Positions 15,155 to 60,691 of a stretch of 64,000 nucleotides of DNA are shown in pieces. The notes under the pieces were generated by a model, which saw nothing but the letters and a program-made list of their open reading frames with translations, did no database searches and was not told where the DNA came from. The position numbers and the translations under genes are program-made. Each line of letters opens with the position of its first letter. Positions within the stretch are counted from its first letter, which is position 1. Source of the DNA: Sphingobium trunci (GTDB lineage: Bacteria; Pseudomonadota; Alphaproteobacteria; Sphingomonadales; Sphingomonadaceae); assembly GCF_022664535.1 (NCBI RefSeq), contig NZ_JAKUJY010000004.1, positions 186,001 to 250,000 of the forward strand, given 5' to 3'.

Positions 15155-17527
15155 TCAGAACTTGGTTCTGACCTCGAAGGTCCACATACGCGGCGCGCCG
15201 ATGGCATAGCCTTCGATACCGAACTCGGCGGTGCCGCCGGTGCCGCTATAGTAATATTTGTTGGTCAGGTTGGTCACCGCCGCCGACAGATCGAAGCGCG
15301 AACCGAAGGCGTGGTTCAACTCGAGCCGCATGTCGACGGTCGTGTAGGCCGGGACCAACTGGCTGCAACGGCCATCCGCAATGCAGGTGGAGTCGCGGCT
15401 GGCGAGACCGAAGGTCGCGATCGCGTCAGCAGGCAGCAGCTTCGTGAACGGCGTCACATAGATGTCCGACTGATAATTGATCGCGCCAAACAGTACCGCC
15501 TCACCGATGTTGTTCGGCAGTTCGCCATGCAGACGCGCGGTGGCGGTCAGCTTGTTGCGGGGCGCCTGCGGCACCGGGTTCACCGAAAGGTCTGCCGTGC
15601 TGGGATGCACGGTCGACGGATCGGGGAAATAGGTGATCTTGGCGTTGTCGTACGAATAGGCGAGCGACAGGTCGAGGAACTGGGCTGGCGCGATGCCTGC
15701 GTTCAGGTCAAAGCCCCAGAAGCGCACCTTCGGAATATTGATGGTGTTGGTGATGAGCTGGCCAGACGTGCCGTCGGCCAGATAGGTGCCCTGGAAGTCC
15801 TTATATTTGTCGTAGAAGAATTCCAGGTTCGCATGGCCGGGCATGCTGCCGAGATGGAAGCTGTTCTTCACGCCTGCCGAGAAGTCGTCGACCTTTTCCG
15901 GATTGAAGGTCGCGCCCGACGACGGGTTGAAACCGCCACGCTTGAACCCATGGCGATAGGCGCCATAGACCATCAGATCCTGATCGAAGTGGTAATCGAC
16001 TCCAATATTGTAGGTCGAACCCTTGAAGCTGCCACTCTTCGTGCTGATGGCCGCTGGATTATTGGGCTGGGGAGCGCCAGCCGGGTACAGCGCCGCACCC
16101 GAAGTCTGGGCGACGTCGATCCAGGTATAGCGGTAACCGCCGGTGATGTTGAGCTTCTCGATCGGCGTCACCGTGACGGAGCCGTAAAGGGCCTTCGACC
16201 GGATGTTGGTCGACTGGAAATTGTAGAAGTTGTAGAGAGTGCCGCCGATCGGAACCGGGTAATCGATCGAATAAGGATTGATCGTGGTGATTCCGGTGGG
16301 CTGCGACGTCTTGTCATACATGCCACCGAACAGGTAGCTGAGCATACCGGTCTTGCCCGACAACTGAAGTTCCTCGGTGAACTGTTCGTTCTTCTTCTTC
16401 CGCGCCGGGGCGGGAAGATCGATGAACGGCAGGTCGAAGCCGTCGGAGTCGGCTGCGTCATTGGTGTAACCGACGCTCTTGATATAGCCGACAATGTTTT
16501 TCAGATTGATCGTGTCGGACAGGCCGAGAGTTGTCGTATTGGCAACGAAATAGACCTTGGTCGCGGGCTTGGTGAGATTGGTGTCCACATAGCCGCAATA
16601 TTTGCCGCACATGGGCGTCGCCTGATATTTGCCCAGGTCGGCCGGGTTTCCGGTGAGGAAATATTTGTTGATGATGCCGCCCAGACCAGAAGCCCGCGTC
16701 TTGTCGACTTCATAGGAAAGGACGGTCAGGTTGCTGATCGTGTCCGACGGCGTCACCAGCAGCGAAGCGCGGAACTGGGTCTGATTGACATTGTTGAAGG
16801 TCTGGCTGCCAAGCGGCTTGCCGCCGGTCGAGCTTTCCGTCTCGGTGGCGCCGGTGAAATAGTTGGTGGCCGACGAATGGAGATAACCGTCACGCTGCCA
16901 GTCAAACGCGGCAAGGCGCAGGGCCACATCGTCACCGAACGGAATGTTGATCGCACCTTCGAACTGGAAGTCGTTATAGGTGCCGCCCTGAACGCGGACA
17001 TAGCCTTCGGTCTTGCCGAGCTTGGGGGCTTCGGGGACGATCACGACCGCGCCGCCAGTGGTGTTCCGGCCGAACAGCGTGCCCTGCGGGCCCTTGAGAA
17101 CCTGGAAGGAGGCGACGTCAAAGAATTGCGGCGCCATGCCGGGGATCTGGAAGGTCGCGCTGAGCGGGATGTCCGCGAAATAGGTCTCCACCGAACCCGA
17201 TGCAGCGCCATATTGCTGGCCGCGGCCGCGGATGGTGAAGGTGGGCAGCGACGGGTTGCCCGAGTCGGAATTGATCGACAGGCCTGCGACCGCCTTCGAC
17301 AGATCGGCCGCCGAAGTGACGCCGCGCTGGGTCAGATCCTTTTGCGATAGCGCTTCGATCGCGAGCGGAACCTGCTGCAGGCTTTCCGACACACGACGCG
17401 CGGTAACCACGATGTCGGAAACAGAACCGGATTGGTTCTGCTGTGCCTGCGCGACGCCGGGGCTGGTCATGCCAATCAGCACCATGACGCAGGTAGACGA
17501 TAACAACTTGAATTTGTTCGGATTCAT
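15155..17527 (-). CDS. TonB-dependent outer membrane receptor
   Basis: A 790-residue outer-membrane receptor. A signal peptide spans about residues 1-28 (cut after AQA), followed by SDIVVTARRVSESLQQVPLA, the TonB-box and plug start usual in sphingomonad receptors. The plug motif LKGPQGTLFGRNTTGGAVV is complete, and the protein ends in the C-terminal barrel signature FEVRTKF. The ATG at 17527 follows GGGAGG. A likely promoter (TTGATT, GATAAT) and an ACYWRGT operator lie just upstream, and a strong hairpin terminates the gene. It is transcribed in the same direction as the CoA-transferase/amidohydrolase operon before it. It probably imports that pathway's substrate, which cannot be identified here. 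Confidence 0.93.
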   Translation of the reverse strand: MNPNKFKLLSSTCVMVLIGMTSPGVAQAQQNQSGSVSDIVVTARRVSESLQQVPLAIEALSQKDLTQRGVTSAADLSKAVAGLSINSDSGNPSLPTFTIRGRGQQYGAASGSVETYFADIPLSATFQIPGMAPQFFDVASFQVLKGPQGTLFGRNTTGGAVVIVPEAPKLGKTEGYVRVQGGTYNDFQFEGAINIPFGDDVALRLAAFDWQRDGYLHSSATNYFTGATETESSTGGKPLGSQTFNNVNQTQFRASLLVTPSDTISNLTVLSYEVDKTRASGLGGIINKYFLTGNPADLGKYQATPMCGKYCGYVDTNLTKPATKVYFVANTTTLGLSDTINLKNIVGYIKSVGYTNDAADSDGFDLPFIDLPAPARKKKNEQFTEELQLSGKTGMLSYLFGGMYDKTSQPTGITTINPYSIDYPVPIGGTLYNFYNFQSTNIRSKALYGSVTVTPIEKLNITGGYRYTWIDVAQTSGAALYPAGAPQPNNPAAISTKSGSFKGSTYNIGVDYHFDQDLMVYGAYRHGFKRGGFNPSSGATFNPEKVDDFSAGVKNSFHLGSMPGHANLEFFYDKYKDFQGTYLADGTSGQLITNTINIPKVRFWGFDLNAGIAPAQFLDLSLAYSYDNAKITYFPDPSTVHPSTADLSVNPVPQAPRNKLTATARLHGELPNNIGEAVLFGAINYQSDIYVTPFTKLLPADAIATFGLASRDSTCIADGRCSQLVPAYTTVDMRLELNHAFGSRFDLSAAVTNLTNKYYYSGTGGTAEFGIEGYAIGAPRMWTFEVRTKF

Positions 17528-17685: not shown

Positions 17686-19071
17686 TCATTCGATGTGAAT
17701 GAGGGTGCCTCGGGATAAGGTCGCCGCAACGGGTTTCGCCGGGAGATCAGCCAGCCATCCGGCGAAGGATGTGTTCAGCAGGCAGATATCGGCAGGTGAT
17801 CCGATCTTCAATGCGCGGGCTGGGCCTCCGGGCTCGTCGAGCGGAGACAGAAACAAGTTCAGGGCACGGCTTGCGGTAATGGCCTCGGCCGGGTTGAGCG
17901 ATGCGCCCGAAGCAGTTCGCCTTTGGACGGCCGCGCCGATCGCCTGCCATGGATCGACCGGACCGTAGGGCGCATCCGAACTGCCCGCGACGGGGATGCC
18001 GGATTGCAGCAGGCTCGCGCAGCGATAGAGATCGGCTTGCTCCTCCGCGTCTACCAGGGCGCGATAGCGGTCGCCGCGGGTTGCGAGGAAACCGGGCTGC
18101 GTCACCACCGTCAGGCGCAGATCGCGGATGACGGAGAGGGCGTCGGCGGGAATGATGCTGCCATGTTCGATCCGGTCGCCGGGCATCGCGCCCGCCTGCT
18201 CGAAGGCGGCCAGCATCACGGCGAGTTCACCGGCCGTGACGCAATGCGCGGCGACGCGGCGGTTCCACGAGCGGGCGTGCGCGATGATTTCGACAACTGC
18301 GTCGATCGTCGGCAAGCGATGATCGTCGAGCAGGATCTTCACTGGTCCGACGGCGAAGGCTCCGTCCTCCGGCGCCGCAAGCGGGCCACCGGACATCAGC
18401 ATCAACTCGCCCGGCAGCGCGCCCATGCGCACCGCATCGGCAAGTATGGCGGCGCTCGCCGCATCATTCGTCACCCCGGCATCGCACAGGCCGGTAATTC
18501 CCTGGGCGGCGATCTGTTGGCCGAGCGCGGCGAGATCGGGTGTCTCCCGGCCGATGCGGGCACTGAGCCATGTATCGCCACGAAAAATCCGCCCGGTCGG
18601 ACGACCTTCGCGGTCCCGTTCGACTTCCTCCGGCCACGGTTCGCCACCCAGCCGTTCCAGCGCCGCGCTGTTGAGGATCCACAGCCCTCCCGTCTGATGC
18701 TGGACCCGCAGCGGCCGGGCAGGCAGGATGGCGTCCAGGGCATGTCGGTCGAGCAGCGCGCCGTCCTGCTGATGATAGCCCGTCGCGCGCATCCATTCGC
18801 CCGGCCCGAGCATCCTGTCGGCCGCTCGCAATGTTCGGGCGAGCGCATCCGGATCGCGGCATGGGTCGAGCTGGACCGAGCGGAGCAGCGCGGCGCTGCC
18901 CAGCAAGTGGATGTGATGATCGTGCAGTCCCGGCAGCGCGGCGCAACCCCGCGCGTCCACCAGCTCCTCGCCCCTCAGGTTCGCGCCGATCTCCGCGATG
19001 CGGCCCTCCCTGATGGCGATGTCCAGGATGCGGCCGTCCACATCGGCATTGCGGATCAGGAGCGTCTTCAT
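17686..19071 (-). CDS. YtcJ-type metal-dependent amidohydrolase
   Basis: A 461-residue amidohydrolase superfamily protein of the YtcJ group. Metal-binding residues are seen in GLHDHHIHL (HxH after strand 1), AAHCVT, RIEHGS and the terminal Asp in AGSSDAPYG. The composite beta-sandwich is formed by the first 55 and last 60 residues (DICLLN, AATLSRG). There is no signal peptide. The ATG at 19071 overlaps the stop of the permuted CoA-transferase (ATGA), so it is translationally coupled to it. YtcJ-like enzymes hydrolyse amides, esters or ring carbonyl compounds. A ring-opening or deacylating step in the neighbouring acyl-CoA pathway is inference. Confidence 0.85.
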   Translation of the reverse strand: MKTLLIRNADVDGRILDIAIREGRIAEIGANLRGEELVDARGCAALPGLHDHHIHLLGSAALLRSVQLDPCRDPDALARTLRAADRMLGPGEWMRATGYHQQDGALLDRHALDAILPARPLRVQHQTGGLWILNSAALERLGGEPWPEEVERDREGRPTGRIFRGDTWLSARIGRETPDLAALGQQIAAQGITGLCDAGVTNDAASAAILADAVRMGALPGELMLMSGGPLAAPEDGAFAVGPVKILLDDHRLPTIDAVVEIIAHARSWNRRVAAHCVTAGELAVMLAAFEQAGAMPGDRIEHGSIIPADALSVIRDLRLTVVTQPGFLATRGDRYRALVDAEEQADLYRCASLLQSGIPVAGSSDAPYGPVDPWQAIGAAVQRRTASGASLNPAEAITASRALNLFLSPLDEPGGPARALKIGSPADICLLNTSFAGWLADLPAKPVAATLSRGTLIHIE

Positions 19072-20072
19072 CGCAGCGCCGCCACGCCGGCGGCCGTGCG
19101 GGAAAGGGCGGCATCGATCATCCGGCCTCCGCCTGCCTGGGCGGCCTCGATCGCGGCGATCGCGGCGGCAAGGCCGGTCAACGGGTCGGCCACGGCGTCT
19201 CCGGCAAAACGGGGCAGTCCCCCCTGCCAGTCGACCAGTCCGCCGGCCACTGCGGCATCATCGCCAAAGCCGGTTCGGAATGCTGCCTCTCCACTCCAGC
19301 CATGGCCAGTGACGGCGACCCAGATCAGGGCAGGATTGGCGGCGAACAGGCGATCGGGCGTGACATCCAATGCCTCGAACGCCCGTGGCCGCGCGCTGGT
19401 GATGAGGATGTCGCACCCGGCCAGCAGGTCCATGAGGCCGGATCGGTCGAAGTCGATCCCCATGCGCCGCTTGGCGCCGTTCAGCCGCCGGTCGAGCAAG
19501 GGGGTGGCGCTGGCGACAGGATCGGGCCGGGTTCGGCTCTCCGCCTTGACGACGTCATGACCAGCGGCGGCCAATATGCCGCCGCACAGGGGGCCGGCCC
19601 ATAAGGTGGAGAGATCGACGACTTTCAGGCGCGTCTTGACGGGGGCGGGGCGGGCGAGGGCCGAACGGAGAGACAGCGCGCGCCAGCTGGACGCCTTGAT
19701 TTCTCCCAACTGCGCGACCGCCAGCCCTAGTTCAGCGCCGCGTGCGATGAAATCCCGCGTCGTTTCGCTGCCGGCCGCCTTGGCAATGGCGGCCCAGGGG
19801 TCCTCCTCCATTTCCCCGAAGGTCCAGGCAGGCACGAGTTCGGCATCGTCCGGCCGTGGCAGGTTGACGGCGATCCAACCGTCGCGCGCTTCGATCAGGC
19901 GGCAACTGCCATTGGGCGAAACCAGTCCCGGTTCCCGCAAGGGCAGCGAATCCGATCGATCGAGCACTTGGACCGGATCGATCTCTACGCTCTTTCCATT
20001 GTCGCGGGTCAGCCGCGCGATTTCTCCGGTCATGGCGGCCGCTGCCTTTACCACCAGCGGAGAAGTGGTCAT
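19068..20072 (-). CDS. Type III (CaiB/BaiF) CoA-transferase family protein, apparently circularly permuted
   Basis: A 334-residue protein of the CaiB/BaiF CoA-transferase fold in an unusual order. The normal family N-terminus (LKVVDLSTLWAGPLCGGILA, then HDVVKAES) begins only at about residue 147. The preceding segment (SPNGSCRLIEARDGWIAVNL, LPRPDD) looks like the region that normally follows the active site. The catalytic Asp is probably in GFGDDAAVAGG, and ADPLTGLAAAIAAI follows as usual. The protein then stops where normal members continue for over 150 residues. The ATG at 20072 overlaps the crotonase stop (ATGA). Order of segments was judged by eye from family memory. Activity as a CoA-transferase or racemase is plausible but untested. 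Confidence 0.75.
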   Translation of the reverse strand: MTTSPLVVKAAAAMTGEIARLTRDNGKSVEIDPVQVLDRSDSLPLREPGLVSPNGSCRLIEARDGWIAVNLPRPDDAELVPAWTFGEMEEDPWAAIAKAAGSETTRDFIARGAELGLAVAQLGEIKASSWRALSLRSALARPAPVKTRLKVVDLSTLWAGPLCGGILAAAGHDVVKAESRTRPDPVASATPLLDRRLNGAKRRMGIDFDRSGLMDLLAGCDILITSARPRAFEALDVTPDRLFAANPALIWVAVTGHGWSGEAAFRTGFGDDAAVAGGLVDWQGGLPRFAGDAVADPLTGLAAAIAAIEAAQAGGGRMIDAALSRTAAGVAALR

Positions 20073-21073
20073 GTCGCGGCATCCACGGCGTGGACAAGAC
20101 CCCAGTCCAGTGCCGTTGCGAGATCGATCCGGCGCGCACTCAGCAGCATATAGGCGGTGCGATGCCGTCCTATGGCGCGCGTCAGGGTGACGGTGCCGCC
20201 CGCGCCGGGAATGAGGCCCATGCGCAGTTCGGGCAGGTGGAAGAAGGTGCCGGGACGGGCGATGCGCCTGGCCGCCGCGGCCGGGACTTCTATGCCCGAT
20301 CCGACGCAGGCGCCATGAAGGACCACCGTCGCGCGATCACCGATGCGGTGGAGCATGACGGCACAGCTTCGCATCGTGCGGATGACATGCGCCATCGCAA
20401 GGTCGCTCGCGCTGCCGAATTCGGGGAGGTCGCCGCCGGTCGAGAAACAGGGCCCCGCGCCCTCCAGCCAGAGCGCGGGCTGCGTGGGATCGTCCGCCAC
20501 CGCCGCCAGCGCCTCGAACAGCGCGTCGCGCATCCCGGCGCACAGTGCATTGCGGTTGTCCGGCCGCGCCAGTCGAACCGTCACATGGTCGTCGCTGCGC
20601 TCCATCTCGATAAAAGGGGCGGCAACGACTGTCCGGGGTTCGGTCTTGCGCTCGGACAGCCATTGGCGAAACTCCGCTCCGCCAAGCAGCGTGGAATAGG
20701 CGAGGGATTCGGCGTGCACCGCATCCTCGAACCCCATATCGGCCTGCATCCGCATCAGCCGCATCGCTATGGTCGTTGCTACCGGATGGCGTGACGCCAG
20801 AGCCGTCATGGCCTCGATGCGATCCCGCCAATGCGCCGCGGCCACCGTGACCCAGGGCCGTGGCGCGTCCACGGCACTGGTCATCAGCAGGTCGAAAAGG
20901 GATTCGTCCACGCCAGGCAGGGCACCTTCCGGGTCCAACCCAACCACAGCGGCTTGGGTGACGCGGGAGAGCAGCCTTGCCTGCTCCATCGCATCCGGCG
21001 AGCCGAGATCGAGGAAGCAGATCGGTCGATCGCCCAGGGCCGAAAAACGCTCTGCCTCCAGACTATCGATCAT
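20069..21073 (-). CDS. Crotonase family protein with rearranged (permuted) domain order
   Basis: A 334-residue crotonase with unusual layout. Residues 90-150 (HPVATTIAMRLMRMQ through ESLAYSTLLGGAEF to WLSERK) resemble the C-terminal helices that end normal crotonases. The catalytic core then follows: VRLARPDNRNAL, CFSTGGDLPEF, GACVGSGIEVPAA and PELRMGLIPGAGGT. Both hydratase Glu residues (GSGIE and LPE) are present. The protein ends right after GLVHAVD, where normal members add about 60 residues. The first 80 residues look like a worn N-terminal crotonase segment. The ATG at 21073 follows GAAGGCAGG. It is coupled to the permuted CoA-transferase. Hydratase activity is likely if the fold closes. 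Confidence 0.78.
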   Translation of the reverse strand: MIDSLEAERFSALGDRPICFLDLGSPDAMEQARLLSRVTQAAVVGLDPEGALPGVDESLFDLLMTSAVDAPRPWVTVAAAHWRDRIEAMTALASRHPVATTIAMRLMRMQADMGFEDAVHAESLAYSTLLGGAEFRQWLSERKTEPRTVVAAPFIEMERSDDHVTVRLARPDNRNALCAGMRDALFEALAAVADDPTQPALWLEGAGPCFSTGGDLPEFGSASDLAMAHVIRTMRSCAVMLHRIGDRATVVLHGACVGSGIEVPAAAARRIARPGTFFHLPELRMGLIPGAGGTVTLTRAIGRHRTAYMLLSARRIDLATALDWGLVHAVDAAT

Positions 21074-21128
21074 GACCTGCCTTCCCGTTCGCCGCCAGGT
21101 CATGCCCTAGCCTGAAGGCAGCCTCCTG

Positions 21129-22631
21129 TCAGGCGGCGATGTCCTTCGTCATCTCCACCTTCAGGACGCGGCGGAGCAGCTTGCCCGTTTCATTATAGGG
21201 CAGTTCGGCGCGGAAATCCCAGCTTTCCGGCGTCTTGGTCGAACGCAGGCGGGTCTGCACCCATTGCGCCAGTTCCGCCGTCTCCGGCCGGGGATCGGCG
21301 CAGACGATCGAGCAGCCGACCTTTTCGCCCCACTGGTCGTCGGGCAGGCCATAAACAGCCACGTCGACCACGGACGGATGCTGGCGCAGCACATCCTCGA
21401 TCTCGCCGGGTGAGATATTCTCCCCGCCACGCACGATCACGTCGTCCAGACGGCCCTCGACGAACAGATAGCCGTCCTCATCGACCCAGCCCGCATCGTT
21501 GGTCGCGAACCAGCCATCGTCGGACAGCACCTTCTTGTGCAGATATTCGCCGGCGACCTGTTCGCCGCGCACATAGATCTCGCCCGATTCGCGGGGGCCG
21601 AGCACGGTCTTGCCGTCGGGTCCGCGAATTTCCAGTTCCAGGCTGGGGAGCGGCCTTCCGACCGAACCGAGCCGCGCGCGCACCTTCTCATCAGGGGACG
21701 CGAACGCCTGGCGGTGATCCTCCGGTCCCAGCACGGCGATGGTGGAGCTGGTTTCGGTGAGGCCATAGGCGTTGACGAAATCGACATTGGGCAGCTTCTG
21801 CATCGCCCGCTCGATGACCGCGGCGGGCATGCGGCCGCCGCCATAGGACACCGCGCGCAGATGCGGCAGCTCGATCTTCAGCAGCTCCATCGCATCCAGG
21901 ATGCGGCTGAGCATGGTCGGCACGACCATGGCGTGCGTCACCCGCTCCGCATGGGCGAGCTGGACCCAGGCGTCGGGCGCGAAACTATGGAGATAGGCGA
22001 TGCGTCGGCCGGAATAGGTGCCGGTCAGAACGGCCGCGATGCCCGCGATATGATAGGGCGGCACGCTGACCAAAGCGGTTTCGTCCTCGCCCGCGCCCAT
22101 GAACTCCACGGTGGAGATGACGTAGGAGGTAAGGTTGCCGTGCCGCAGCACCGCCGCCTTGGGATCGCCGGTGGTGCCGCTGGTGAACAGCAGGATGGCG
22201 ATATCCTGATCCACGAAGGGCAGTTCGGCGCAGCAATTGTCGTCGTCGACGCAGGCGGCCTCGAACGCTTCGCGGGTGACGACGCGCACACCCTCGACGC
22301 CATGCACGCGCGTCGCCATCGTGCCGTCCGCGATCAGCACCGAGGGCGCCGTTCGCGCGACCAGCTTGCGCAGATCGGCATCGGCCAGGCGATAGTTGAG
22401 CGGAACGAAGGGCCGACCCGCCAGCCCGGCGGCATAGAGCGCCAGCGGAAAGGCGGGGCCGTTATGCCCCAGGAACACGACCTTGTCCCCTTCGAAACGG
22501 CTGAGGAAGTTCGCACCTCCCTTGGCCCGGCGGAACGCCTCAGCATAGCTGAGACCGCCTTCGACAGTGGTATAGCCTTCGCGGTCACCGATCGCTTCGG
22601 CCGCCATTTCGAGGAGGAGGTGGGTCTGCAT
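21129..22631 (-). CDS. AMP-forming acyl-CoA ligase
   Basis: A 500-residue class I adenylate-forming enzyme that activates a carboxylic acid with ATP and CoA. The P-loop is LLFTSGTTGDPKAAVLR. YGLTETSS, the adenylate-binding GWFATNDAGWVDEDGYL and the hinge VRGGENISPGEIEDVL follow. The C-terminal catalytic Lys is in NETGKLLRR. The N-terminal half is short compared with fatty-acyl ligases, as in small medium-chain or aryl ligases. It lies between a small desulforedoxin-like gene and the permuted crotonase on the same strand and probably provides the first activation step of this operon. The substrate is not predictable. Confidence 0.92.
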   Translation of the reverse strand: MQTHLLLEMAAEAIGDREGYTTVEGGLSYAEAFRRAKGGANFLSRFEGDKVVFLGHNGPAFPLALYAAGLAGRPFVPLNYRLADADLRKLVARTAPSVLIADGTMATRVHGVEGVRVVTREAFEAACVDDDNCCAELPFVDQDIAILLFTSGTTGDPKAAVLRHGNLTSYVISTVEFMGAGEDETALVSVPPYHIAGIAAVLTGTYSGRRIAYLHSFAPDAWVQLAHAERVTHAMVVPTMLSRILDAMELLKIELPHLRAVSYGGGRMPAAVIERAMQKLPNVDFVNAYGLTETSSTIAVLGPEDHRQAFASPDEKVRARLGSVGRPLPSLELEIRGPDGKTVLGPRESGEIYVRGEQVAGEYLHKKVLSDDGWFATNDAGWVDEDGYLFVEGRLDDVIVRGGENISPGEIEDVLRQHPSVVDVAVYGLPDDQWGEKVGCSIVCADPRPETAELAQWVQTRLRSTKTPESWDFRAELPYNETGKLLRRVLKVEMTKDIAA

Positions 22632-22667
22632 CTGGGTCGATCTGTCCTGTCTTGCGCCTGACCGCGC

Positions 22668-22976
22668 TTAGTCCGAAGCGGGAAGCGGCTTGGCGTCCTT
22701 GAGCGTCGCGGCGCGCCCGTCCACCGACAGCGAGCCGGGACCAGCCTTGCTGCCCAGCAGTTCGATGCCGCTATCGGCATCGACATAGCGCTTGCCGACC
22801 GAGGTGCCGCCCGAAAAATCGGGCGAGATGGTGAGGCCCTCGGGCGCGGCTTCGCCCAGGGCGACCATGGGATGGCCGCCGCATTCCAGCGACACGTCGC
22901 CCTTGGGCGGACGAACGACCACGACTTCGGTGCTGTCCACCGCGCTCTTCCAACGTGAACCGGGCTTAACCTGCAT
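22668..22976 (-). CDS. Small desulforedoxin-like protein that has lost most metal cysteines
   Basis: A 102-residue cytoplasmic protein. Its first 38 residues align by eye with the desulforedoxin/desulfoferrodoxin N-terminal zinc-or-iron knuckle (YKCxxCGxxVEV, about 10 residues, then CCGxPM). Here they read WKSAVDSTEVVVV, then ECGGHPM, so the first two Cys are Ser and Asp and only one of the last pair is kept. The remaining 60 residues (DADSGIELLGSKAG) are not recognised. The ATG at 22976 follows an AGGGAG-like site. It lies 23 bases after a CoA-transferase and 36 before a CoA ligase, so a small structural or accessory role in the pathway is suggested. No function is established. Confidence 0.7.
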   Translation of the reverse strand: MQVKPGSRWKSAVDSTEVVVVRPPKGDVSLECGGHPMVALGEAAPEGLTISPDFSGGTSVGKRYVDADSGIELLGSKAGPGSLSVDGRAATLKDAKPLPASD

Positions 22977-22999
22977 GTTCTAGTCTCCCTGCGGGCCGC

Positions 23000-24244
23000 T
23001 CAGGCGACCGCGCCTTTCTCTTTCAACTGTTCGATCCGGTCCCATTCGATGCCGAGTTCCATCAGCACCAGTTCGGTATGTTCGGACGCTTCCGGCGCGC
23101 GCGTCGTTTCGACCTTCGCGTGATCGAACTGGACGGGATTCGCAACCAGCCGGATCGGCGCGCCGCCGTCCGCAGACTCTACCTCGAAAATGAAGTCGTT
23201 GGCCAGAACCTGTTCGTCGAACGAAACATCATAGACTGACTGATAGGCCGCCCACTGGCCACGCATGGTCTTGAGGCGATCGGTCCAATATTTGAACGGC
23301 TTGGTCTTGAACGCGGCGACGATCATTTCGTAGGCCGCGCGGGTATTTTCCTCCTTCATCAACTCGACGTCGGTGGAAAAGCGCGGATCGTCGGCATGTT
23401 CGCCGATGCCCAGATGCTCGAACGTGTCCTTGATATAGGGTCCGGGCGTCAGGACGGACAAGCTGATATGCCCGCCATCCTCCGTCTCGAACATGCCGAT
23501 CAGCGGATTGGTGCCGACGGTGTTCTTGCCCGGCATCGCCGCCTCGAACGGATTGGTCTTCAGCTCCATCGCGACATCGACGCTGCATGCGGTCGCCCAG
23601 ATGCCGGAGGAGAGCAGCGACACGTCGACCTCGGTGGCCTTGCCGGTGCGCTCGCGGTGGAAGAGGGCGGCGGCAATGCCGCCCGCGATGTTCATGCCGC
23701 CGATCGTGTCGCCATAGGCCGGGCCGGGCTGAAGCAGCGGCGAACCTAGTTCCTTGGGCGCCACCAGCTTGGCCGATCCGCCCCGCGCCCAGAAGGCGGT
23801 CGAGTCAAACCCGCCCTTTTCCCGCTCCGGGCCCTTGTCGCCGAAAGCGGAACCGCGAACATAGATGATATTCGGATTGGCGGCGCGGATATGCTCCACG
23901 TCGATCTTCAGCTTCTGCCGCTGCTGGGGCAGATAGTTGGTCAGGAACACGTCGCACTGCTTGGCGAGTTCGTAGATCAGTTCCTGCCCCTCGGGCGTGG
24001 AAACGTCGATGCCGACCGAGCGCTTGCCGCGATTGGGATGCTGCATCAGGCTGGAACGCTGCGGATTGACCGCGAGGCGCTGGAGCATCTGGATGCCGCG
24101 CTGCGCGTCGCCGCGGACGGGATGCTCGACCTTGATGACGTCCGCGCCCCAATCGGCCAGAACACCGCCGGCCATGGGCACGAAAGTGAACTGGGCTATT
24201 TCCAGGACCCGAACGCCCTCCATCACCTTCGTCATTGTCTGCAT
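23000..24244 (-). CDS. Type III CoA-transferase (CaiB/BaiF family)
   Basis: A full-length 414-residue enzyme with normal segment order: VRVLEIAQFTFVPMAGGVLADWGADVIKVEHP at the start, then KGGFDSTAFWARGG with the catalytic Asp that forms the acyl-aspartyl anhydride, and GDTIGGMNIAGGIAAALFHRERTG after it. The ATG at 24244 follows AGGAGAT, with another in-frame ATG at 24235. It is the first gene of the leftward operon down to 17686. A minus-strand TTGACA (24322-24317) overlapping an ACYWRGT-like site lies upstream. It moves CoA between carboxylic acids, or racemises a 2-methylacyl-CoA as the related AMACR does. The two cannot be told apart here. Confidence 0.9.
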   Translation of the reverse strand: MQTMTKVMEGVRVLEIAQFTFVPMAGGVLADWGADVIKVEHPVRGDAQRGIQMLQRLAVNPQRSSLMQHPNRGKRSVGIDVSTPEGQELIYELAKQCDVFLTNYLPQQRQKLKIDVEHIRAANPNIIYVRGSAFGDKGPEREKGGFDSTAFWARGGSAKLVAPKELGSPLLQPGPAYGDTIGGMNIAGGIAAALFHRERTGKATEVDVSLLSSGIWATACSVDVAMELKTNPFEAAMPGKNTVGTNPLIGMFETEDGGHISLSVLTPGPYIKDTFEHLGIGEHADDPRFSTDVELMKEENTRAAYEMIVAAFKTKPFKYWTDRLKTMRGQWAAYQSVYDVSFDEQVLANDFIFEVESADGGAPIRLVANPVQFDHAKVETTRAPEASEHTELVLMELGIEWDRIEQLKEKGAVA

Positions 24245-34732: not shown

Positions 34733-36253
34733 TCAGTCCTTGCGGTCTTCGCCCCGCTCGACGCCCGCCAGATTCTCGGCATAGCCCTTCTTGCGCTCGA
34801 CCTCCATCTGGCGGAGGATCTGGATGCGCTGCGCCTGCGGGCTGCCCGCGCCGTGCATCGATTCCGTCAGATAGCCCACCGCATTGCGGCCCAGCGTCAT
34901 ATTCTCGATCAAGCGCAGCATGCGCTGGCGATGCTCGACCGGGATGTTGTTACGGCCTTTCAGATATTTTTCCAGGATCGGGCCGGTCACATCATTCTTG
35001 AAATCCGCTTCCGAGGGCAGCGTCACCATCAGGCCCCCGGCAAGATCCTGCGCCAGACGGCTGATCTCATAGGGGAATCGGGTGACATTATGCTTGCAGA
35101 CATTCGCCAGCATCCCGTCGTTCATGTAGATGCCCGACGGCAGCGGCTTGGCCTCATGGCTCGACGCGATGGCGGAGGAATAGATGGTCTCGTTGAGATG
35201 CGTCATTTCGACCAGCTTGTCCTTCACATGGCTGGCCTGGTCCGCGCCATTATATTCGGCGATGGCCGCCGCCGCGCCGACCATCACGTCGCCCAGGCCC
35301 GTCTTGCAGACATAGGAGGCGCGGTGATAACTGGTGAAGCGGGCCACCATCTCCTGCGCGAATTCATATTCGCCGTCCATCAGCACATGTTCGTTGGGGA
35401 TGAAGACCTCGTCGAACACGACCAGCGCTTCCTGCCCGCCGAAGCGCGCATTGCCCTTGTCGATGTCGCCCGCCTCCATCGCCCGCGTGTCGCAGGACTG
35501 GCGGCCGTAGATATAGGTGATGCCCTCCGCATCGGCGGGGACCAGACCGACCACCGCATAATCCTTGTCATTGGGGCCAAGGTTCATGGTCGGCATCACC
35601 GCGATCCAGTGCGAATTCCAGCCGCCGGTCATATGCGCCTTGGCACCCTTCACATAGATGCCCGTCTCGGTGCGGCGGGTGATGTGCAGGAACAGGTCGG
35701 GATCGGCCTGTTCGGACGGGCGCTTGGACCGGTCGCCCTTGGGATCGGTCATGCCCGCGCCGACGATGATGTTGTTGGCTTGCGCGTGCTTCATGAATTC
35801 CAGATAGCGCTGGTGGTAGGAGGTGCCGTGCTTCTGGTCGATGTCGTAGGTGATCGAATGCAGGACGGAGATGGTGTCCAGCCCCGCGCAGCGCTGGAAG
35901 CAGGTGCCGGTCAGCTGGCCCATGCGGCGCTGCATCCGGTTCTTCATCACCAGGTCCTGCGGGCTTCCGACGATATGCAGGAAGCGGTTGACCCGCGCGT
36001 CGATCAGGTCGCTATGCGCGGTCGCCAGTTCCGGATCTTCATTGGCAAGGTCGTACGTCATGGCGAGCGCGTTGATCGACGGGCGGATGATCGGGTGGTC
36101 GGCCGGTTCCTCGATCTGCTCGCCGAACAGGTAGAGCGTCGTGCCGCGCCCACGCAGCGACTCGATATATTCCGCGCCCGAACGGATCGGCTTGAAGCGC
36201 GACCAACGGCGTTCGGCGGACTCTTCCTTCGGGTGCTTGACGATGGCGTTCAT
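34733..36253 (-). CDS. 4-hydroxybutyryl-CoA dehydratase-type protein (HpaB superfamily)
   Basis: A 506-residue protein of the HpaB/4-hydroxybutyryl-CoA dehydratase superfamily. Features of the dehydratase branch are visible: a C-x3-C pair (Cys118, Cys122 in TCFQRCAGL), His310 and Cys316 in YHRASYVCKTG, corresponding to the [4Fe-4S] ligands, the adjacent Lys317, and the branch-typical TESMHGAGSPQAQR with its Glu. The His-to-Cys distance is one residue shorter than I remember for the Clostridium enzyme. The usual automatic name 4-hydroxyphenylacetate 3-monooxygenase is less likely because that branch lacks these ligands. The ATG at 36253 follows GAGGA. It diverges from an AraC-type regulator. 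Dehydration of a 4-hydroxyacyl-CoA is inferred. Confidence 0.78.
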   Translation of the reverse strand: MNAIVKHPKEESAERRWSRFKPIRSGAEYIESLRGRGTTLYLFGEQIEEPADHPIIRPSINALAMTYDLANEDPELATAHSDLIDARVNRFLHIVGSPQDLVMKNRMQRRMGQLTGTCFQRCAGLDTISVLHSITYDIDQKHGTSYHQRYLEFMKHAQANNIIVGAGMTDPKGDRSKRPSEQADPDLFLHITRRTETGIYVKGAKAHMTGGWNSHWIAVMPTMNLGPNDKDYAVVGLVPADAEGITYIYGRQSCDTRAMEAGDIDKGNARFGGQEALVVFDEVFIPNEHVLMDGEYEFAQEMVARFTSYHRASYVCKTGLGDVMVGAAAAIAEYNGADQASHVKDKLVEMTHLNETIYSSAIASSHEAKPLPSGIYMNDGMLANVCKHNVTRFPYEISRLAQDLAGGLMVTLPSEADFKNDVTGPILEKYLKGRNNIPVEHRQRMLRLIENMTLGRNAVGYLTESMHGAGSPQAQRIQILRQMEVERKKGYAENLAGVERGEDRKD

Positions 36254-55905: not shown

Positions 55906-56086
55906 AGTCGTTCTTCGACCGGACAGGGTGCGCCGGCCGAACGGGGATTTCCCTCGCCGAGCGACAGCCATCGCCTTGCCGGTGCGGCCGTGCGGGGGTG
56001 GGCCGTGTCGCGCGTCCCTCCCACCGTTCAGGCCTCCGGCGGGTTTGTTGCCGTCCGGTTGGAGGATGCGGAATGACTGTGAAGGG

Positions 56087-56506
56087 ATGGGCGCGCTGAT
56101 GCTGCGCGCGGTGGAGAGCGGGGCGTCGGTGGTCGTCTGTTCGACCTGTCGTCTGTCGGCGGAGCGCCGGGAAGATGGTGAGGGACGACGTGGTGGAGCC
56201 TTGCTGGCTGAAGCCATGCGCGCCGTTCAGGCGAGTGACCCTGCTTATGTGGGGGTGGCGGTGCAGGATATGCCATGCCTGTTCGCATGCCAGCGCCATT
56301 GCACGGTGCATGTCCGGGGGAGCGGCAAGATCGGCTATGTGCTGGGCGATTTCACCCCCGACGAGGATGCCGCGCGCGCGATCCTCGACTATGCGGCGCG
56401 CCATGCCGCAAGCGAGGAGGGCGTGGTGCGCTATGCCGACTGGCCGCAGGGAGTGAAGGGGCATTTCATCGTTCGCACGCCGCCTGAAGGTTTTGTCTGC
56501 TCATGA
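56087..56506 (+). CDS. DUF1636 family metal-binding protein
   Basis: A protein of about 139 residues of the DUF1636 family. The Cys pattern CSTC near the N-terminus and CLFACQRHC in the middle suggests a thioredoxin-like [2Fe-2S] or other metal site. KIGYVLGDF and GHFIVRTPP complete the family profile. Starts at 56066, 56087 and 56099 are possible. GAAGGG lies near, and none is ideal. It is the first gene after the B12 riboswitch and overlaps cobT by four bases (ATGA). Members often sit in cobalamin clusters, so a role in cobalt or corrinoid metabolism is inferred. No function is proven to my knowledge. Confidence 0.8.
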   Translation: MGALMLRAVESGASVVVCSTCRLSAERREDGEGRRGGALLAEAMRAVQASDPAYVGVAVQDMPCLFACQRHCTVHVRGSGKIGYVLGDFTPDEDAARAILDYAARHAASEEGVVRYADWPQGVKGHFIVRTPPEGFVCS

Positions 56507-57519
56507 TCCGCTTCGAAAACAGGGCGGCCTTTGCCGCGGCCTTGGCCGATCTTCCGGAACCGGATGCGGGCGCCGTGAAGGCAGCGGCGGCGCGGCAGGC
56601 GGTGCTGACCAAGCCCGCGGGATCGCTGGGGCGTCTGGAGGAAATCGCGCTGTTCATGGCCGGCTGGCAGGGACGGGAACGGCCCCGTGCCGAGCGCATC
56701 CGGGCAGCGATCTTCGCCGGAAACCATGGTGTTGCGGCGCGTGGCGTCAGCGCCTTTCCCGCTGAAGTGACGACGCAGATGGTTGCCAACTTCCATCATG
56801 GCGGGGCTGCGATCAATGCCCTGGCGGGGGCTTGCGGGGCGCAACTCACCATCGTGGCGCTCGATCTCGATCGGCCGACCGGCGATATTTGCGTCGAACC
56901 GGCGATGAGCGAGGAGGATTGTCTGGACGCGATCAACGCCGGGGCGGCGGTGGTGGAGCGGGACCTCGACCTGCTGCTTCTGGGCGAGATGGGAATCGCC
57001 AACACCACCCCGGCAGCGGCCCTTTGCGCGCAGTCTTTCGGCGGTGCGGCGGAGCATTGGGTAGGACGCGGGACGGGCGTTGATGCCCATGGCCTGTCTC
57101 GCAAGGCGGAAGCGGTGACGCTGGCGCTGGTGCTGCATGGCCCCGCCTGCGGCGATGCGTTCGAGATGCTGCGCTGCCTTGGCGGGCGGGAGATCGCGGC
57201 CATGGCAGGTGCCATGCTGGCCGCGCGGATGTGGCATGTGCCGGTGATGCTGGATGGCTTTATCGGCTGTGCGGCGGTGGCTCCCTTGGTCCGCGACAAC
57301 AGGGCCATCACAGGCCATTGCCTGGCGGCGCATTGCTCCGCCGAAGCGGGGCATGGGCGGTTGCTCGATGCGCTCGGTCTGGAGCCGCTGCTGCGTCTCG
57401 ACATGCGACTCGGCGAGGGTAGCGGCGCGGCGGTGGCGACCCAGATCGTGCGATCGGCGCTGGCCGCGCATGGTGGCATGGCGACCTTTGCCGAGGCTGC
57501 GGTGGCCGGGGCGCTGTGA
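56503..57519 (+). CDS. cobT: Nicotinate-nucleotide--dimethylbenzimidazole phosphoribosyltransferase
   Basis: A 338-residue CobT of normal length. It makes alpha-ribazole phosphate from nicotinate mononucleotide and dimethylbenzimidazole, forming the lower ligand of cobalamin. TKPAGSLGRLEEIA, FAGNHGVAARGVSAFP, GEMGIANTTPAAAL and the catalytic Glu region LRLDMRLGEGSGAA are visible. Start ATG at 56503 overlaps the DUF1636 stop, and the stop overlaps the GTG start of cobC. It is under riboswitch control. Dimethylbenzimidazole synthesis (bluB) is not in the window. Confidence 0.95.
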   Translation: MIRFENRAAFAAALADLPEPDAGAVKAAAARQAVLTKPAGSLGRLEEIALFMAGWQGRERPRAERIRAAIFAGNHGVAARGVSAFPAEVTTQMVANFHHGGAAINALAGACGAQLTIVALDLDRPTGDICVEPAMSEEDCLDAINAGAAVVERDLDLLLLGEMGIANTTPAAALCAQSFGGAAEHWVGRGTGVDAHGLSRKAEAVTLALVLHGPACGDAFEMLRCLGGREIAAMAGAMLAARMWHVPVMLDGFIGCAAVAPLVRDNRAITGHCLAAHCSAEAGHGRLLDALGLEPLLRLDMRLGEGSGAAVATQIVRSALAAHGGMATFAEAAVAGAL

Positions 57520-58082
57520 ACCCCTTTGCTCTTCACCTGATGCGTCATGGCGCAACGGAGCGGCCGGGACGGCTGTGGGGGCATGGGGATGAGCCGTCCA
57601 GCGCGGAAGGCGTGGCGCTCTGTGTCGAACGGGCGCGAGGTCTGGACTTTGCCCGGGTGGTGACGTCCGACCTGTCGCGGGCGCGGGTGCCGGGGGCGCT
57701 TATCGCGTCGGAACGAGCGGTTCGCCATGAGATCGATCGCCGCTGGCGGGAACTGGATTTCGGGCATTGGGATGGGGCCGATCCGGCCCATTTGCCGGAG
57801 CAGGATCTGGCCCGTTTCTGGAGCGATCCGCAGGGCTTTCCACCGCCGGAAGGGGAGCGATGGAGCGACCTTCATGGGCGGGTGGCGGCGGCGCTCGATG
57901 ATGTTCACGAGCCTGCACTGGTCGTTACCCATGCAGGGGCGATCCGGGCCGCGCTGGCAGCACTTTGCGGCCTCGATCTGCGGCAGGGCTGGGCGGTCGA
58001 CCTGTCCTATGGCGCCGTGCTCACCCTGCGGCTGTGGCCAGGCAAGACGCCGTCCGCGCAAATGACCGGGTTGCTGACATGA
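57516..58082 (+). CDS. cobC: Histidine phosphatase, alpha-ribazole phosphatase
   Basis: A 188-residue histidine phosphatase superfamily protein. LHLMRHGATE has the catalytic RHG, SDLSRARVPG the second Arg, LDFGHWDGADP the Glu/Asp region (REL-DFG) and VVTHAGAIRA the second His. It removes phosphate from alpha-ribazole-5'-phosphate or adenosylcobalamin phosphate in the late pathway. The GTG start at 57516 overlaps the cobT stop by four bases. The symbol follows Salmonella naming. In alphaproteobacteria cobC is also used for the decarboxylase. Confidence 0.88.
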   Translation: MNPFALHLMRHGATERPGRLWGHGDEPSSAEGVALCVERARGLDFARVVTSDLSRARVPGALIASERAVRHEIDRRWRELDFGHWDGADPAHLPEQDLARFWSDPQGFPPPEGERWSDLHGRVAAALDDVHEPALVVTHAGAIRAALAALCGLDLRQGWAVDLSYGAVLTLRLWPGKTPSAQMTGLLT

Positions 58083-58789
58083 GGCGGCTGATATCGGCGC
58101 TGCAATTGATGACCAGCCTGCCGCTGCCTTCGGTCAGGGCTGACGATGCCGATTTTGCGGCGGCGATCCGATGGTTTCCCGCTGCCGGAGCGGCTGTCGG
58201 CATCGTCGTCGCCGGGGCTGCAGGGCTGGGCATCAGGATCGATGCCTGGGCGGGCGCCTGGCTGGCGCTGCTGGCGTGGGTTGCCGTGACTGGTGCGCTG
58301 CATCTGGACGGGCTGGGCGATATGGCCGATGCGGCGGGCGCGGCGCATGGAGACCGTGCGAAACTGTCTGCCGTGTTGGCCGATCCGCATATCGGCAGTT
58401 TCGGCGTCGTCGCCATCCTGCTCCAGTTGCTGACGAAACTGGTTCTGCTGCGGCTCTGGCTGGAGTTTTTTCCGGTCTGGATGCTCATCCCGCTTGCCAT
58501 GGTGGCGCGAATCGGACCGCTGGTCTGGGCGCGATGGTTGCCTCCGTTGCATGAAGGGCTGGCCAGCCGTTTCCGCGCGGGTTGGACGCCCTTCGCCCTC
58601 ATTGTCTGGTCCGGTTTGGCGCTGGTTCTGAGCTGGTGGATTCCGGCATTGCTGACGGCGATCGTGCTGATCCCGCTCTGGAACCGCTGGCTGCGGGTGC
58701 GGATCGGGGGAATCAACGGCGATGGCCATGGTGCTGGCATCGAACTGATGGAAAGCGCGCTGCTGGCGGCGATGGTGGTGGCGCGATGA
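58079..58789 (+). CDS. cobS: Adenosylcobinamide-GDP ribazoletransferase (cobalamin synthase)
   Basis: A 236-residue integral membrane enzyme that joins adenosylcobinamide-GDP and alpha-ribazole. LMTSLPLP at the start, RWFPAAGAAVGI, LHLDGLGDMADAAGA with the metal-binding Asp residues and DPHIGSFGVVAI are family signatures. It has several transmembrane segments. The ATG at 58079 overlaps the cobC stop (ATGA). It is followed by cobD with another four-base overlap. Confidence 0.94.
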   Translation: MRRLISALQLMTSLPLPSVRADDADFAAAIRWFPAAGAAVGIVVAGAAGLGIRIDAWAGAWLALLAWVAVTGALHLDGLGDMADAAGAAHGDRAKLSAVLADPHIGSFGVVAILLQLLTKLVLLRLWLEFFPVWMLIPLAMVARIGPLVWARWLPPLHEGLASRFRAGWTPFALIVWSGLALVLSWWIPALLTAIVLIPLWNRWLRVRIGGINGDGHGAGIELMESALLAAMVVAR

Positions 58790-59763
58790 ACGGCTTTGCC
58801 TGGCATGGCGGACGGTTGGGTGAGGCGCGGGCGCTTTACGGCGGGGAGGAGTGGATCGACCTGTCAACCGGGATCAGCCCGATCGTCTGGCCGGGCGTGG
58901 AAAGGGTAGCCGTGGACTGGCGGGCATTGCCGGACTCGGGCGATCTGGCCGAACTCGAAGAGGCGGCCGCAGGGCATTTCGGGGTCGATCCCGCCTTCGT
59001 CTGCACCTTGCCGGGCAGCGAGATGGGATTGCGGCTGGTCGGGCGACTGCTCGATCTGCCGGGGCGCTGGCTGGTGCCGAGCTATCGGACCCATGGCGAG
59101 ATTTTTGACTCCGGCCATCCCGTGTCGAACGGCGAGAAAGCTCTAGGGGAGGCAGTGGCCCTGCTGCTCGCCAATCCGAACAATCCCGACGGTCGCGTCC
59201 TGGCGCCTGCGCTTTTGCGCCAGTGGCTGGAGGCGCTGGAGCGAGCGGGGGGATGGCTTATCGTGGACGAAGCCTATGCCGATGCCATGCCCGAATGCAG
59301 CGTGATGAGCGACGTGCAAGATGGAAGGCGGCTGATTCTCTTGCGATCCTTCGGCAAGTTTTTCGGGCTGGCCGGGGTTCGGTTGGGTTTTCTGGTCGGG
59401 CCGCGCGCGATCGTCGAACGGGCGCGCCGGATGATGGGGGAATGGCCGGTGTCGGCGGCTGCCATTGCCTTTGGCCGGGAAGCCTATCGCGATTGCGACT
59501 GGATGGCCGAGACCAGATTGCGGCTGAAGGATCGGGCGGCGGGACTCGATAAGGTGCTGGCGACACATGGGCTGGAGGCACGCGGCGCATGTCCGCTGTT
59601 TCGATTGGTGGAGGTGGAGGACGGCTTTGCGCTGTTCGACCGCCTTGCAAGGGCGGCGATCCTGACCCGACCGTTCGAGGATAATCCGCGCTGGCTGCGG
59701 ATAGGCTTGCCGAGTGACGGGTGGGCGCAGGAACGGATCGACCGGGCGCTGGGGCATGGCTGA
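58786..59763 (+). CDS. cobD: Threonine-phosphate decarboxylase (PLP aminotransferase fold)
   Basis: A 325-residue class I/II aminotransferase-fold protein. WIDLSTGISPIVWP marks the CobD/CobC group. ANPNNPDGR, IVDEAYAD and the PLP Lys in RSFGKFFGLAGVRLGF are clear. It makes (R)-1-aminopropan-2-yl phosphate from threonine phosphate, the linker used by CbiB. ATG at 58786 overlaps the cobS stop, and the end overlaps cbiB by eight bases. It is shorter than the Salmonella enzyme by about 40 residues. The alphaproteobacterial name is cobC. Confidence 0.9.
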   Translation: MNGFAWHGGRLGEARALYGGEEWIDLSTGISPIVWPGVERVAVDWRALPDSGDLAELEEAAAGHFGVDPAFVCTLPGSEMGLRLVGRLLDLPGRWLVPSYRTHGEIFDSGHPVSNGEKALGEAVALLLANPNNPDGRVLAPALLRQWLEALERAGGWLIVDEAYADAMPECSVMSDVQDGRRLILLRSFGKFFGLAGVRLGFLVGPRAIVERARRMMGEWPVSAAAIAFGREAYRDCDWMAETRLRLKDRAAGLDKVLATHGLEARGACPLFRLVEVEDGFALFDRLARAAILTRPFEDNPRWLRIGLPSDGWAQERIDRALGHG

Positions 59764-60691
59764 ACCGTTCGCGCTGGTGGCGCTGATGCTGGATGCAGCG
59801 CTGGGTTGGCCGAACTGGCTTCATGTGCGGACCGGGCATCCGGTGGGCGGCTTTGCCCGGATCATCGAAGCGATCGAACGGCTGTGGAACCGGGCGGACT
59901 GGAGCGACCTGCTGCGGCGCTGGGCGGGAATGGGGCTGCTGCTGATCCTGCTGGCCGTCGCTGGAGGCTTGGGATTTGCCCTGGAAACGATCATCAGGCG
60001 CTGGGCTGGAAGCTGGGGCTGGATCTGGCTCGCCTTCGCTGCCTGGCCGGCGCTGGCGCAGCGCAGCCTTTATGCTCATGTTCTGCCGGTTGTGCAGGCG
60101 CTGAAGGCGGGCGATCTGGTCGGCGCGCGACGGGCTGTCGGTTGGATCGTCGGGCGAGACACGGAAAATCTGGATGAAGCGGGCGTGGCGCGTGCGGCCA
60201 TCGAAAGTCTGGCCGAAAGCTTCTGCGATGGGGTTGTCGCACCGCTTTTCTGGCTCCTGTTGCTCGGCTTGCCGGGTGTCTGGGCCTATAAGGCAGTGAA
60301 CACGGCGGACAGTCTGATCGGTCATAAGGAAGCTCCGTTCACCCATTTCGGTTGGGCGGCGGCGCGGTTCGACGATCTGCTCAACTGGATTCCCGCGCGG
60401 CTCGCGGGATTGCTGATCTGTGTGGCGGGCGGCGGAGGCTGGGCTGTGATGTGGCGGGATCATCGGCGCCATGCCTCTCCCAATGCGGGTTGGCCTGAAG
60501 CCGCGATGGCGGGCGCGCTGGGGATCAGGCTGGCGGGACCGGTCCGATATGACGGTGTGCAGCATGACAAGCCGTGGATCGGCGAAGGTGCCGTTGCGGA
60601 TTTGCAGGCCATGGAGGCGGCCTTGCGGGTCTATCTGCGCTCCTGCCTGATGCTCTGGGGATTGGTGGCGCTTTGGGAAGGGATCGCATGA
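59756..60691 (+). CDS. cbiB: Adenosylcobinamide-phosphate synthase
   Basis: A 311-residue membrane enzyme of the CbiB/CobD family. It attaches aminopropanol phosphate to adenosylcobyrate. HPVGGFARIIEAIER, GRDTENLDEAGVARAAIESLAE with the conserved acidic and Ser residues, and YKAVNTADSLIGHK are strong signatures. The ATG at 59756 lies inside the end of cobD. Another in-frame ATG at 59714 is less likely. It overlaps cobU by four bases. Confidence 0.93.
   Translation: MAEPFALVALMLDAALGWPNWLHVRTGHPVGGFARIIEAIERLWNRADWSDLLRRWAGMGLLLILLAVAGGLGFALETIIRRWAGSWGWIWLAFAAWPALAQRSLYAHVLPVVQALKAGDLVGARRAVGWIVGRDTENLDEAGVARAAIESLAESFCDGVVAPLFWLLLLGLPGVWAYKAVNTADSLIGHKEAPFTHFGWAAARFDDLLNWIPARLAGLLICVAGGGGWAVMWRDHRRHASPNAGWPEAAMAGALGIRLAGPVRYDGVQHDKPWIGEGAVADLQAMEAALRVYLRSCLMLWGLVALWEGIA

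Follow-up and report, generated by a model that had tools for sequence, protein, structure and literature searches.

The steroid HIP pathway employs a crotonase (EchA20) and a CoA-transferase-fold enzyme (IpdAB), each of which opens a ring hydrolytically (PMC5380842). Compared by description only, this pathway may be taken as the nearest working analogy for three adjacent genes, hereafter the trio, that encode a crotonase, a class III CoA-transferase and a YtcJ-type amidohydrolase in a 64,000-nucleotide stretch of Sphingobium trunci DNA (the window; G000:C34:186001-250000 of a 4.67-Mb genome). The trio belongs to a set of six genes at 17686-24244, all on the minus strand and reading leftward. 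The likeness to the HIP pathway lies in the pairing of a crotonase fold with a CoA-transferase fold and in hydrolytic ring opening; the differences are that IpdAB has a type I transferase fold and that the main text of PMC5380842 does not use the word amidohydrolase; no mention of a permutation was seen there either. An induced amidohydrolase is mentioned for a bile-salt cluster of Caenibius (PMC12882949).

Each enzyme of the trio also has relatives of a described kind. The crotonase resembles the crotonase superfamily (ECH_1, PF00378) in its core region, in its GxGxE and PE motifs and in a GAGG loop, but its C-terminal helical part precedes the core and the canonical order is not found. Class III CoA-transferases (CaiB/BaiF and formyl-CoA transferase; PF02515) are interlocked homodimers that use a catalytic Asp. 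The transferase of the trio has in common with them the Rossmann-type half (canonical columns about 10-212) and the small-domain region (164-351), but here the small-domain region comes first, while a tail (columns 390-407) stays terminal in the longer members of the family, and the permuted enzyme has GFGDD where the canonical transferase of the same gene set (P0006) has GFD. The amidohydrolase agrees with YtcJ-type amidohydrolases (PF07969) along nearly the full length of the profile and in its metal-ligand pattern, and its best relatives in the PDB, 3icj and 3igh, were deposited as uncharacterised.

Judged by titles and abstract openings, no description was found, among the open-licence papers listed, of a natural circular permutation of a crotonase or a class III CoA-transferase, or of the trio's pathway. 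The view of an earlier note on this DNA, that no characterised pathway is known to have this combination of genes, agrees with what was found, and the trio apparently represents a variant of known enzyme kinds in an undescribed pathway. The six plasmid records examined annotate its members only by the generic names 'CoA transferase', 'enoyl-CoA hydratase/isomerase family protein' and 'amidohydrolase family protein', and none of the NCBIfam models shown passed its cut-off with any of the three proteins (the best 25 of 64 models for the crotonase and the 18 families listed for the amidohydrolase).

Circular permutation of the two CoA enzymes

Pfam sees only the first part of the ECH_1 profile in the crotonase and only the first part of CoA_transf_3 in the transferase, in both cases at the C-terminal end of the protein. 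The crotonase carries its C-terminal helical part first and the hydratase core second, and the transferase its small-domain part first and the Rossmann part second. Canonical profiles were built from same-locus relatives (31 crotonases and 50 CoA-transferases), and hhalign was used to compare them with the N-terminal parts of the permuted proteins. For 71 crotonase-family proteins this part aligns to canonical columns 191-252 (E 3.2e-4, probability 39%) with a score of 33.1, against 13.2 for the best of 30 column shuffles, and for 87 transferase-family proteins it aligns to canonical columns 164-351 (E 1.6e-5, probability 79%) with a score of 43.8 against 13.8. Controls in which the families were swapped gave probabilities of 0.1% for the crotonase and 0.4% for the transferase. 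When the canonical profile was doubled, the alignment ran unbroken through the junction over 263 columns for the crotonase (313.0 versus 287.7 for a single copy) and over 350 columns for the transferase (270.6 versus 242.1), both comparisons standing without a shuffle control. As single sequences, proteins of both families give weak N-terminal hits (E 0.002 to >1), which share one register where they are present; in this listing, which covers 60 of the 74 crotonases and 60 of the 89 transferases, several crotonases, mostly mycobacterial, give no such hit. All 13 members of family A2 hit ECH_1. The permutation of both enzymes that the earlier note had proposed is supported by the N-terminal matches, by the continuous alignments to the doubled profiles and by the clades described below.

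Frameshifted or truncated canonical genes were considered as an explanation and rejected because in all 76 crotonase-family members the protein ends no more than 11 residues from the end of the core (median canonical position 182 of 260). Some members are shortened by contig ends or start choice, the minimum being 0 and 2 residues before the core.

Longer members of the transferase family bear on how the permutation came about. In 41 of them the C-terminal tail matches columns 390-407 (18 columns, probability 14%), scoring 26.1 versus 9.6 for the best of 30 shuffles, and in 15 the N-terminal stretch matches columns 165-291 (probability 58%; 36.7 versus 14.8). The family core corresponds to canonical columns about 10-212, so that columns 165-212 occur twice in the longer forms, and because of this the transferase permutation probably arose through a duplication with fusion and complementary loss. 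At four of the loci examined (L109 453-2837, L131 4257-6620, L140 5486-7900 and L162 1123-3570) a fused protein of 787-815 aa contains two CoA-transferase copies in canonical order, with partial interruption in L140. Such a protein was rejected as a demonstrated ancestor, since none of the four aligned continuously to the permuted profile across the junction; the sole trace of a junction alignment was a 9-bit hit in L109.

In trees of the core region 75 permuted crotonases are split from 31 canonical ones with a support of 0.998, and 93 permuted transferases from 50 canonical ones with a support of 1.0, one member of each permuted family having been lost at the match or length filter. Each permuted family is thus a single clade among the sequences sampled, and each permutation appears to have arisen once, a test that is suggestive only because the canonical sets are same-locus neighbours chosen by score. 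The structure predicted for the transferase monomer is confident (mean predicted local distance difference test score, pLDDT, 88.1; predicted template-modelling score, pTM, 0.90; 312 of 334 residues at >=70), and in the model the N-terminal part is accordingly predicted to have a defined packing against the Rossmann part.

Conservation of the trio

Within the genus the permuted transferase is found at full coverage in the S. trunci genome and in 17 of 60 others, and transferase, crotonase and amidohydrolase, each present in 18 of 61 genomes, occur in the identical 18. In a sample of 299 genomes from the phylum each of the three was found in the same 3, that of S. trunci among them, a count from which genomes may be missing since the rows shown give scores for only 5-7 candidates per genome. 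A further 80 named loci, among the matches listed, were fetched with the permuted transferase, so that only the other genes in them count as independent evidence. Among these listed matches the trio was whole within the stored stretch at 67 of the 80 loci and complete for 76 of the 80 after whole-genome checks of the remaining 13. The missing member was recovered elsewhere in the genome for L069 (as two pieces on two contigs), L076, L099, L109, L118, L121, L132 and L142, and at L098 the crotonase was present as two adjacent open reading frames; after these checks the trio was still incomplete for L093, L113, L122 and L139. L098, from Qipengyuania, with its split crotonase and a partial amidohydrolase match, is a decaying or mis-sequenced copy. 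The taxonomic range of the trio among the matches listed takes in sphingomonads, mycobacteria, streptomycetes and deltaproteobacteria, and the closest named relatives of the transferase among them are from Phenylobacterium and Sphingopyxis, followed closely by other sphingomonads.

Plasmids gave a similar picture. Among 72,556 plasmid records the transferase was found on 15 (E<=1e-15), the crotonase on 16 (E<=1e-25) and the small desulforedoxin-like protein that is also encoded in the gene set on 18 (E<=1e-5), the E limits differing between the searches. All 15 transferase-bearing plasmids also carry the permuted crotonase and the desulforedoxin-like gene, sometimes more than 200 kb off, and an amidohydrolase adjoins the transferase in each of the six regions opened (of 15). 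On a Sphingomonas paeninsulae plasmid about 247 kb separate the crotonase and the small protein from the transferase and amidohydrolase, and in genome G060 the crotonase is on a different contig from the transferase/amidohydrolase pair; the link between the members of the trio is therefore not one of mere adjacency. The amidohydrolase is on the same strand and within 500 bases of the transferase match at 64 of the 73 loci that hold both.

Clusters of shared genes across 101 loci include the transferase at 94, the amidohydrolase at 90, the crotonase at 76, the small protein at 53, the ligase at 51 and the canonical CoA-transferase at 34. These counts are lower bounds because the custom gene caller missed some genes, including the crotonase in several loci (e.g., G009, G020, G037 and G055) where whole-genome search found it. 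Gene distances are correlated with each other (r 0.69 to 0.92), shared species history included. Because dozens of genomes conserve the genes, chance and an annotation artefact were rejected as explanations. The gene-neighbourhood check across bacteria that the earlier note had called for thus gave co-occurrence in the genus, the phylum, the named loci and the plasmids, and the trio is a genuine, widespread module.

Active-site motifs

E272 and E292 of the crotonase are present in 76 of 76 members and correspond, by motif, to the two catalytic hydratase Glu residues (E144 and E164 of rat ECH). In the transferase D271 and D272 are present in 94 of 94 members, a pattern which suggests that the permuted enzyme likely keeps transferase chemistry. 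The amidohydrolase keeps the full binuclear-type ligand set, with HxH in 89 of 90 members (one gap) and K245, H276, H303 and D366 each in 90 of 90; we take HxH, Lys, His, His and Asp to be the metal-ligand pattern of YtcJ-type amidohydrolases. Conservation of the metal-ligand and Glu motifs suggests that the enzymes of the trio are live.

A further, very improbable reading is that the permuted proteins are paralogues without catalytic activity or with a regulatory role, retained because a complex needs them for its assembly. It is in keeping with the long branches between both permuted families and the canonical ones and with the uncertain register of the transferase Asp, but the near-complete invariance of the active-site motifs across phyla speaks against it.

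The small desulforedoxin-like protein

The 102-aa protein matched no Pfam family, and its family profile gave a single match against the PDB at E<=10, desulforedoxin, at E 0.83. Of 10 members, 4 matched Desulfoferrod_N of Pfam, the best at E 0.015. The likeness to desulforedoxin and the N-terminal domain of desulfoferrodoxin consists of the register, one Cys before the aligned stretch and CGG after it. CGG stands in place of the CC of desulforedoxin in 53 of 53 small proteins, position 14 is Cys in 48 of 53 relatives and Asp in the window copy, and a further Cys is present at position 75 in 40 of 53. The first Cys of CxxC is absent in the ten sequences of family A3, and the four-Cys site (CxxC and CC) was not found. 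Most relatives thus have two of the four desulforedoxin ligands and the window copy one, and the protein is longer than desulforedoxin. The description of this protein as degenerate and desulforedoxin-like, given in the earlier note, is weakly supported. Within the genus the small protein is present in the same 13 of 39 genomes as the trio, own included, with one additional weak hit in G028.

Layout of the gene set

The six genes, whose kinds and positions had been proposed from the DNA alone, agree with strand, coordinates and Pfam matches (Table 1). Both ATGA overlaps that join the last three genes were read in the DNA, at 20069-20072 between crotonase and CoA-transferase and at 19068-19071 between CoA-transferase and amidohydrolase. 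The crotonase may start at 21073 instead of 21103. It is possible that the TonB-dependent receptor downstream is an uptake partner of the gene set.

Table 1. Genes of the set at 17686-24244 and the adjoining receptor gene (positions in the window)
Product	Position	Strand	Basis
Canonical class III CoA-transferase (P0006), first gene of the set	23000..24244	-	Pfam CoA_transf_3 1-366/366, E 8e-82
Small protein, 102 aa, desulforedoxin-like (P0005)	22668..22976	-	Weak desulforedoxin match; conserved family A3
Class I adenylate-forming acyl-CoA ligase (P0004)	21129..22631	-	AMP-binding E 1.3e-64, AMP-binding_C
Circularly permuted crotonase (P0003), 344 aa	20069..21103	-	ECH_1 8-175/251 at residues 175-342, E 4.9e-26
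Circularly permuted class III CoA-transferase (P0002), 334 aa	19068..20072	-	CoA_transf_3 4-201/366 at residues 149-329
YtcJ-type amidohydrolase (P0001)	17686..19071	-	Amidohydro_3 E 2e-38, near full-length profile match
TonB-dependent receptor, directly downstream of the amidohydrolase	15155..17527	-	Pfam TonB_dep_Rec_b-barrel, Plug

Elsewhere in the window, an HpaB-type 4-hydroxyphenylacetate 3-hydroxylase is encoded at 34733-36253, with an alpha/beta hydrolase gene and further catabolic genes nearby, and positions 56001-60000 have a marked strand asymmetry versus the rest of the window (GC skew 0.166, AT skew -0.181).

Neighbouring genes and proposed function

Genes that recur near the trio encode thiolases, acyl-CoA dehydrogenases, Amidohydro_2 proteins and transporters of the major facilitator superfamily and TonB types, together with regulators of the IclR, MarR and TetR families, and they vary by lineage. 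A thiolase/OB-fold pair is found at L066, and around the small protein, depending on the locus, there are genes for cytochrome P450, aldehyde dehydrogenase, MaoC and acyl-CoA dehydrogenase. KstD-like dehydrogenases and MhpA/MhpB-like and HsaA-like enzymes, detailed below, are also among the catabolic neighbours. These neighbours point to the catabolism of hydrophobic alicyclic or aromatic acids. We lean slightly towards the view that the gene set is a conserved module for the catabolism of a hydrophobic carboxylic acid, alicyclic or aromatic-derived, that is activated with CoA. In such a module the ligase or the canonical CoA-transferase would make the CoA thioester, and acyl-CoA dehydrogenases encoded nearby or elsewhere would introduce a double bond. 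The permuted crotonase would then hydrate the enoyl-CoA or open it hydrolytically, the permuted CoA-transferase would move CoA between the product and the incoming acid, and the amidohydrolase would hydrolyse the freed intermediate, most simply a lactone, an amide or a cyclic ketone. Neither of the two outcomes that the earlier note named as refuting its view was obtained: the trio is conserved elsewhere, and among the open-licence papers listed no assignment of its genes to a known pathway was found. The hydrolytic cleavage of a ring or amide is, like the substrate and the order of reactions, something that we infer. A bolder and doubtful extension holds that two CoA enzymes were permuted independently and then became fixed together, along with the amidohydrolase and the degenerate metal-binding protein, and that these form the core of a hydrolytic, CoA-dependent catabolic pathway, so far undescribed, in at least Pseudomonadota and Actinomycetota. 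On this view the altered topology is demanded by a shared physical assembly, for instance a multienzyme complex or a channel.

Several observations weigh against a single active catabolic module built on two permuted enzymes. The evidence for permutation of the crotonase is short (61 columns, hhalign probability 39%, and 16% as a whole-family second hit), and the doubled-profile scores carry no shuffle control. An ungapped profile alignment to the PDB sets G270, not D271, opposite the CaiB-type Asp, so that retention of transferase chemistry is likely rather than certain. The Williamsia locus L139 has the transferase, and the other two members of the trio were not found in its genome; L045 is without the amidohydrolase locally, its genome (G040) keeping another copy on contig C1. 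The flavin adenine dinucleotide enzyme close to the trio at L147 is of a kind other than KstD. The oxidative partners change from lineage to lineage, which makes one substrate for all lineages unlikely.

It is also conceivable, if rather unlikely, that the trio carries out last steps like those of steroid degradation, the crotonase opening a ring as EchA20 and BadI do, the transferase fold acting as a C-C hydrolase as in IpdAB, and the amidohydrolase opening a second bond. The HIP pathway couples a crotonase hydrolase with a CoA-transferase-fold hydrolase (PMC5380842), and KstD-like dehydrogenases are neighbours of the trio at L141, L145, L146 and L149, those of L146 and L149 scoring best against 4-oxocyclohexanecarboxylate dehydrogenase and all of them lying below the cut-off. 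At L146 there are also enzymes resembling MhpA and MhpB that score above a cut-off; the HsaA-like enzyme of L148 scores below it. Both hydratase Glu positions are invariant, however, which favours plain hydration; IpdAB has a type I, two-subunit CoA-transferase fold and not a class III fold, the invariant Asp pair suggests that transferase chemistry was retained, and the mycobacterial loci have other neighbours. A KstD-like gene is present in the S. trunci genome on a different contig, with no link to the operon found. On the Streptomyces plasmid locus L148 (15846-23339) the trio has as its neighbour a set of mycofactocin genes (mftR, G, A, B, C, D, E, F), and the HsaA-like hydroxylase adjoins that set.

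A role in detoxification or salvage, in which the module would hydrolyse an N-acyl or lactam xenobiotic and recycle CoA, is less probable still. It would suit the chemistry of the amidohydrolase superfamily, and hydantoinase/oxoprolinase and aminotransferase genes adjoin the trio on one Rhodococcus plasmid, but no recurrent nitrogen-metabolism partner was found among the annotated shared clusters, a minority of the 101-locus clusters, whereas beta-oxidation-type genes do recur among them. At L145 (17077-20965), a plasmid locus of Rhodococcus gordoniae, the trio is followed by genes for hydantoinase/oxoprolinase and hydantoinase B.

Significance

The occurrence of two permuted enzymes in adjacent, co-inherited genes is surprising and offers a clean system in which to study the reasons for changes of chain topology. 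If the catabolic reading holds, the trio would mark a catabolic route that is widespread among sphingomonads, mycobacteria, rhodococci and streptomycetes.

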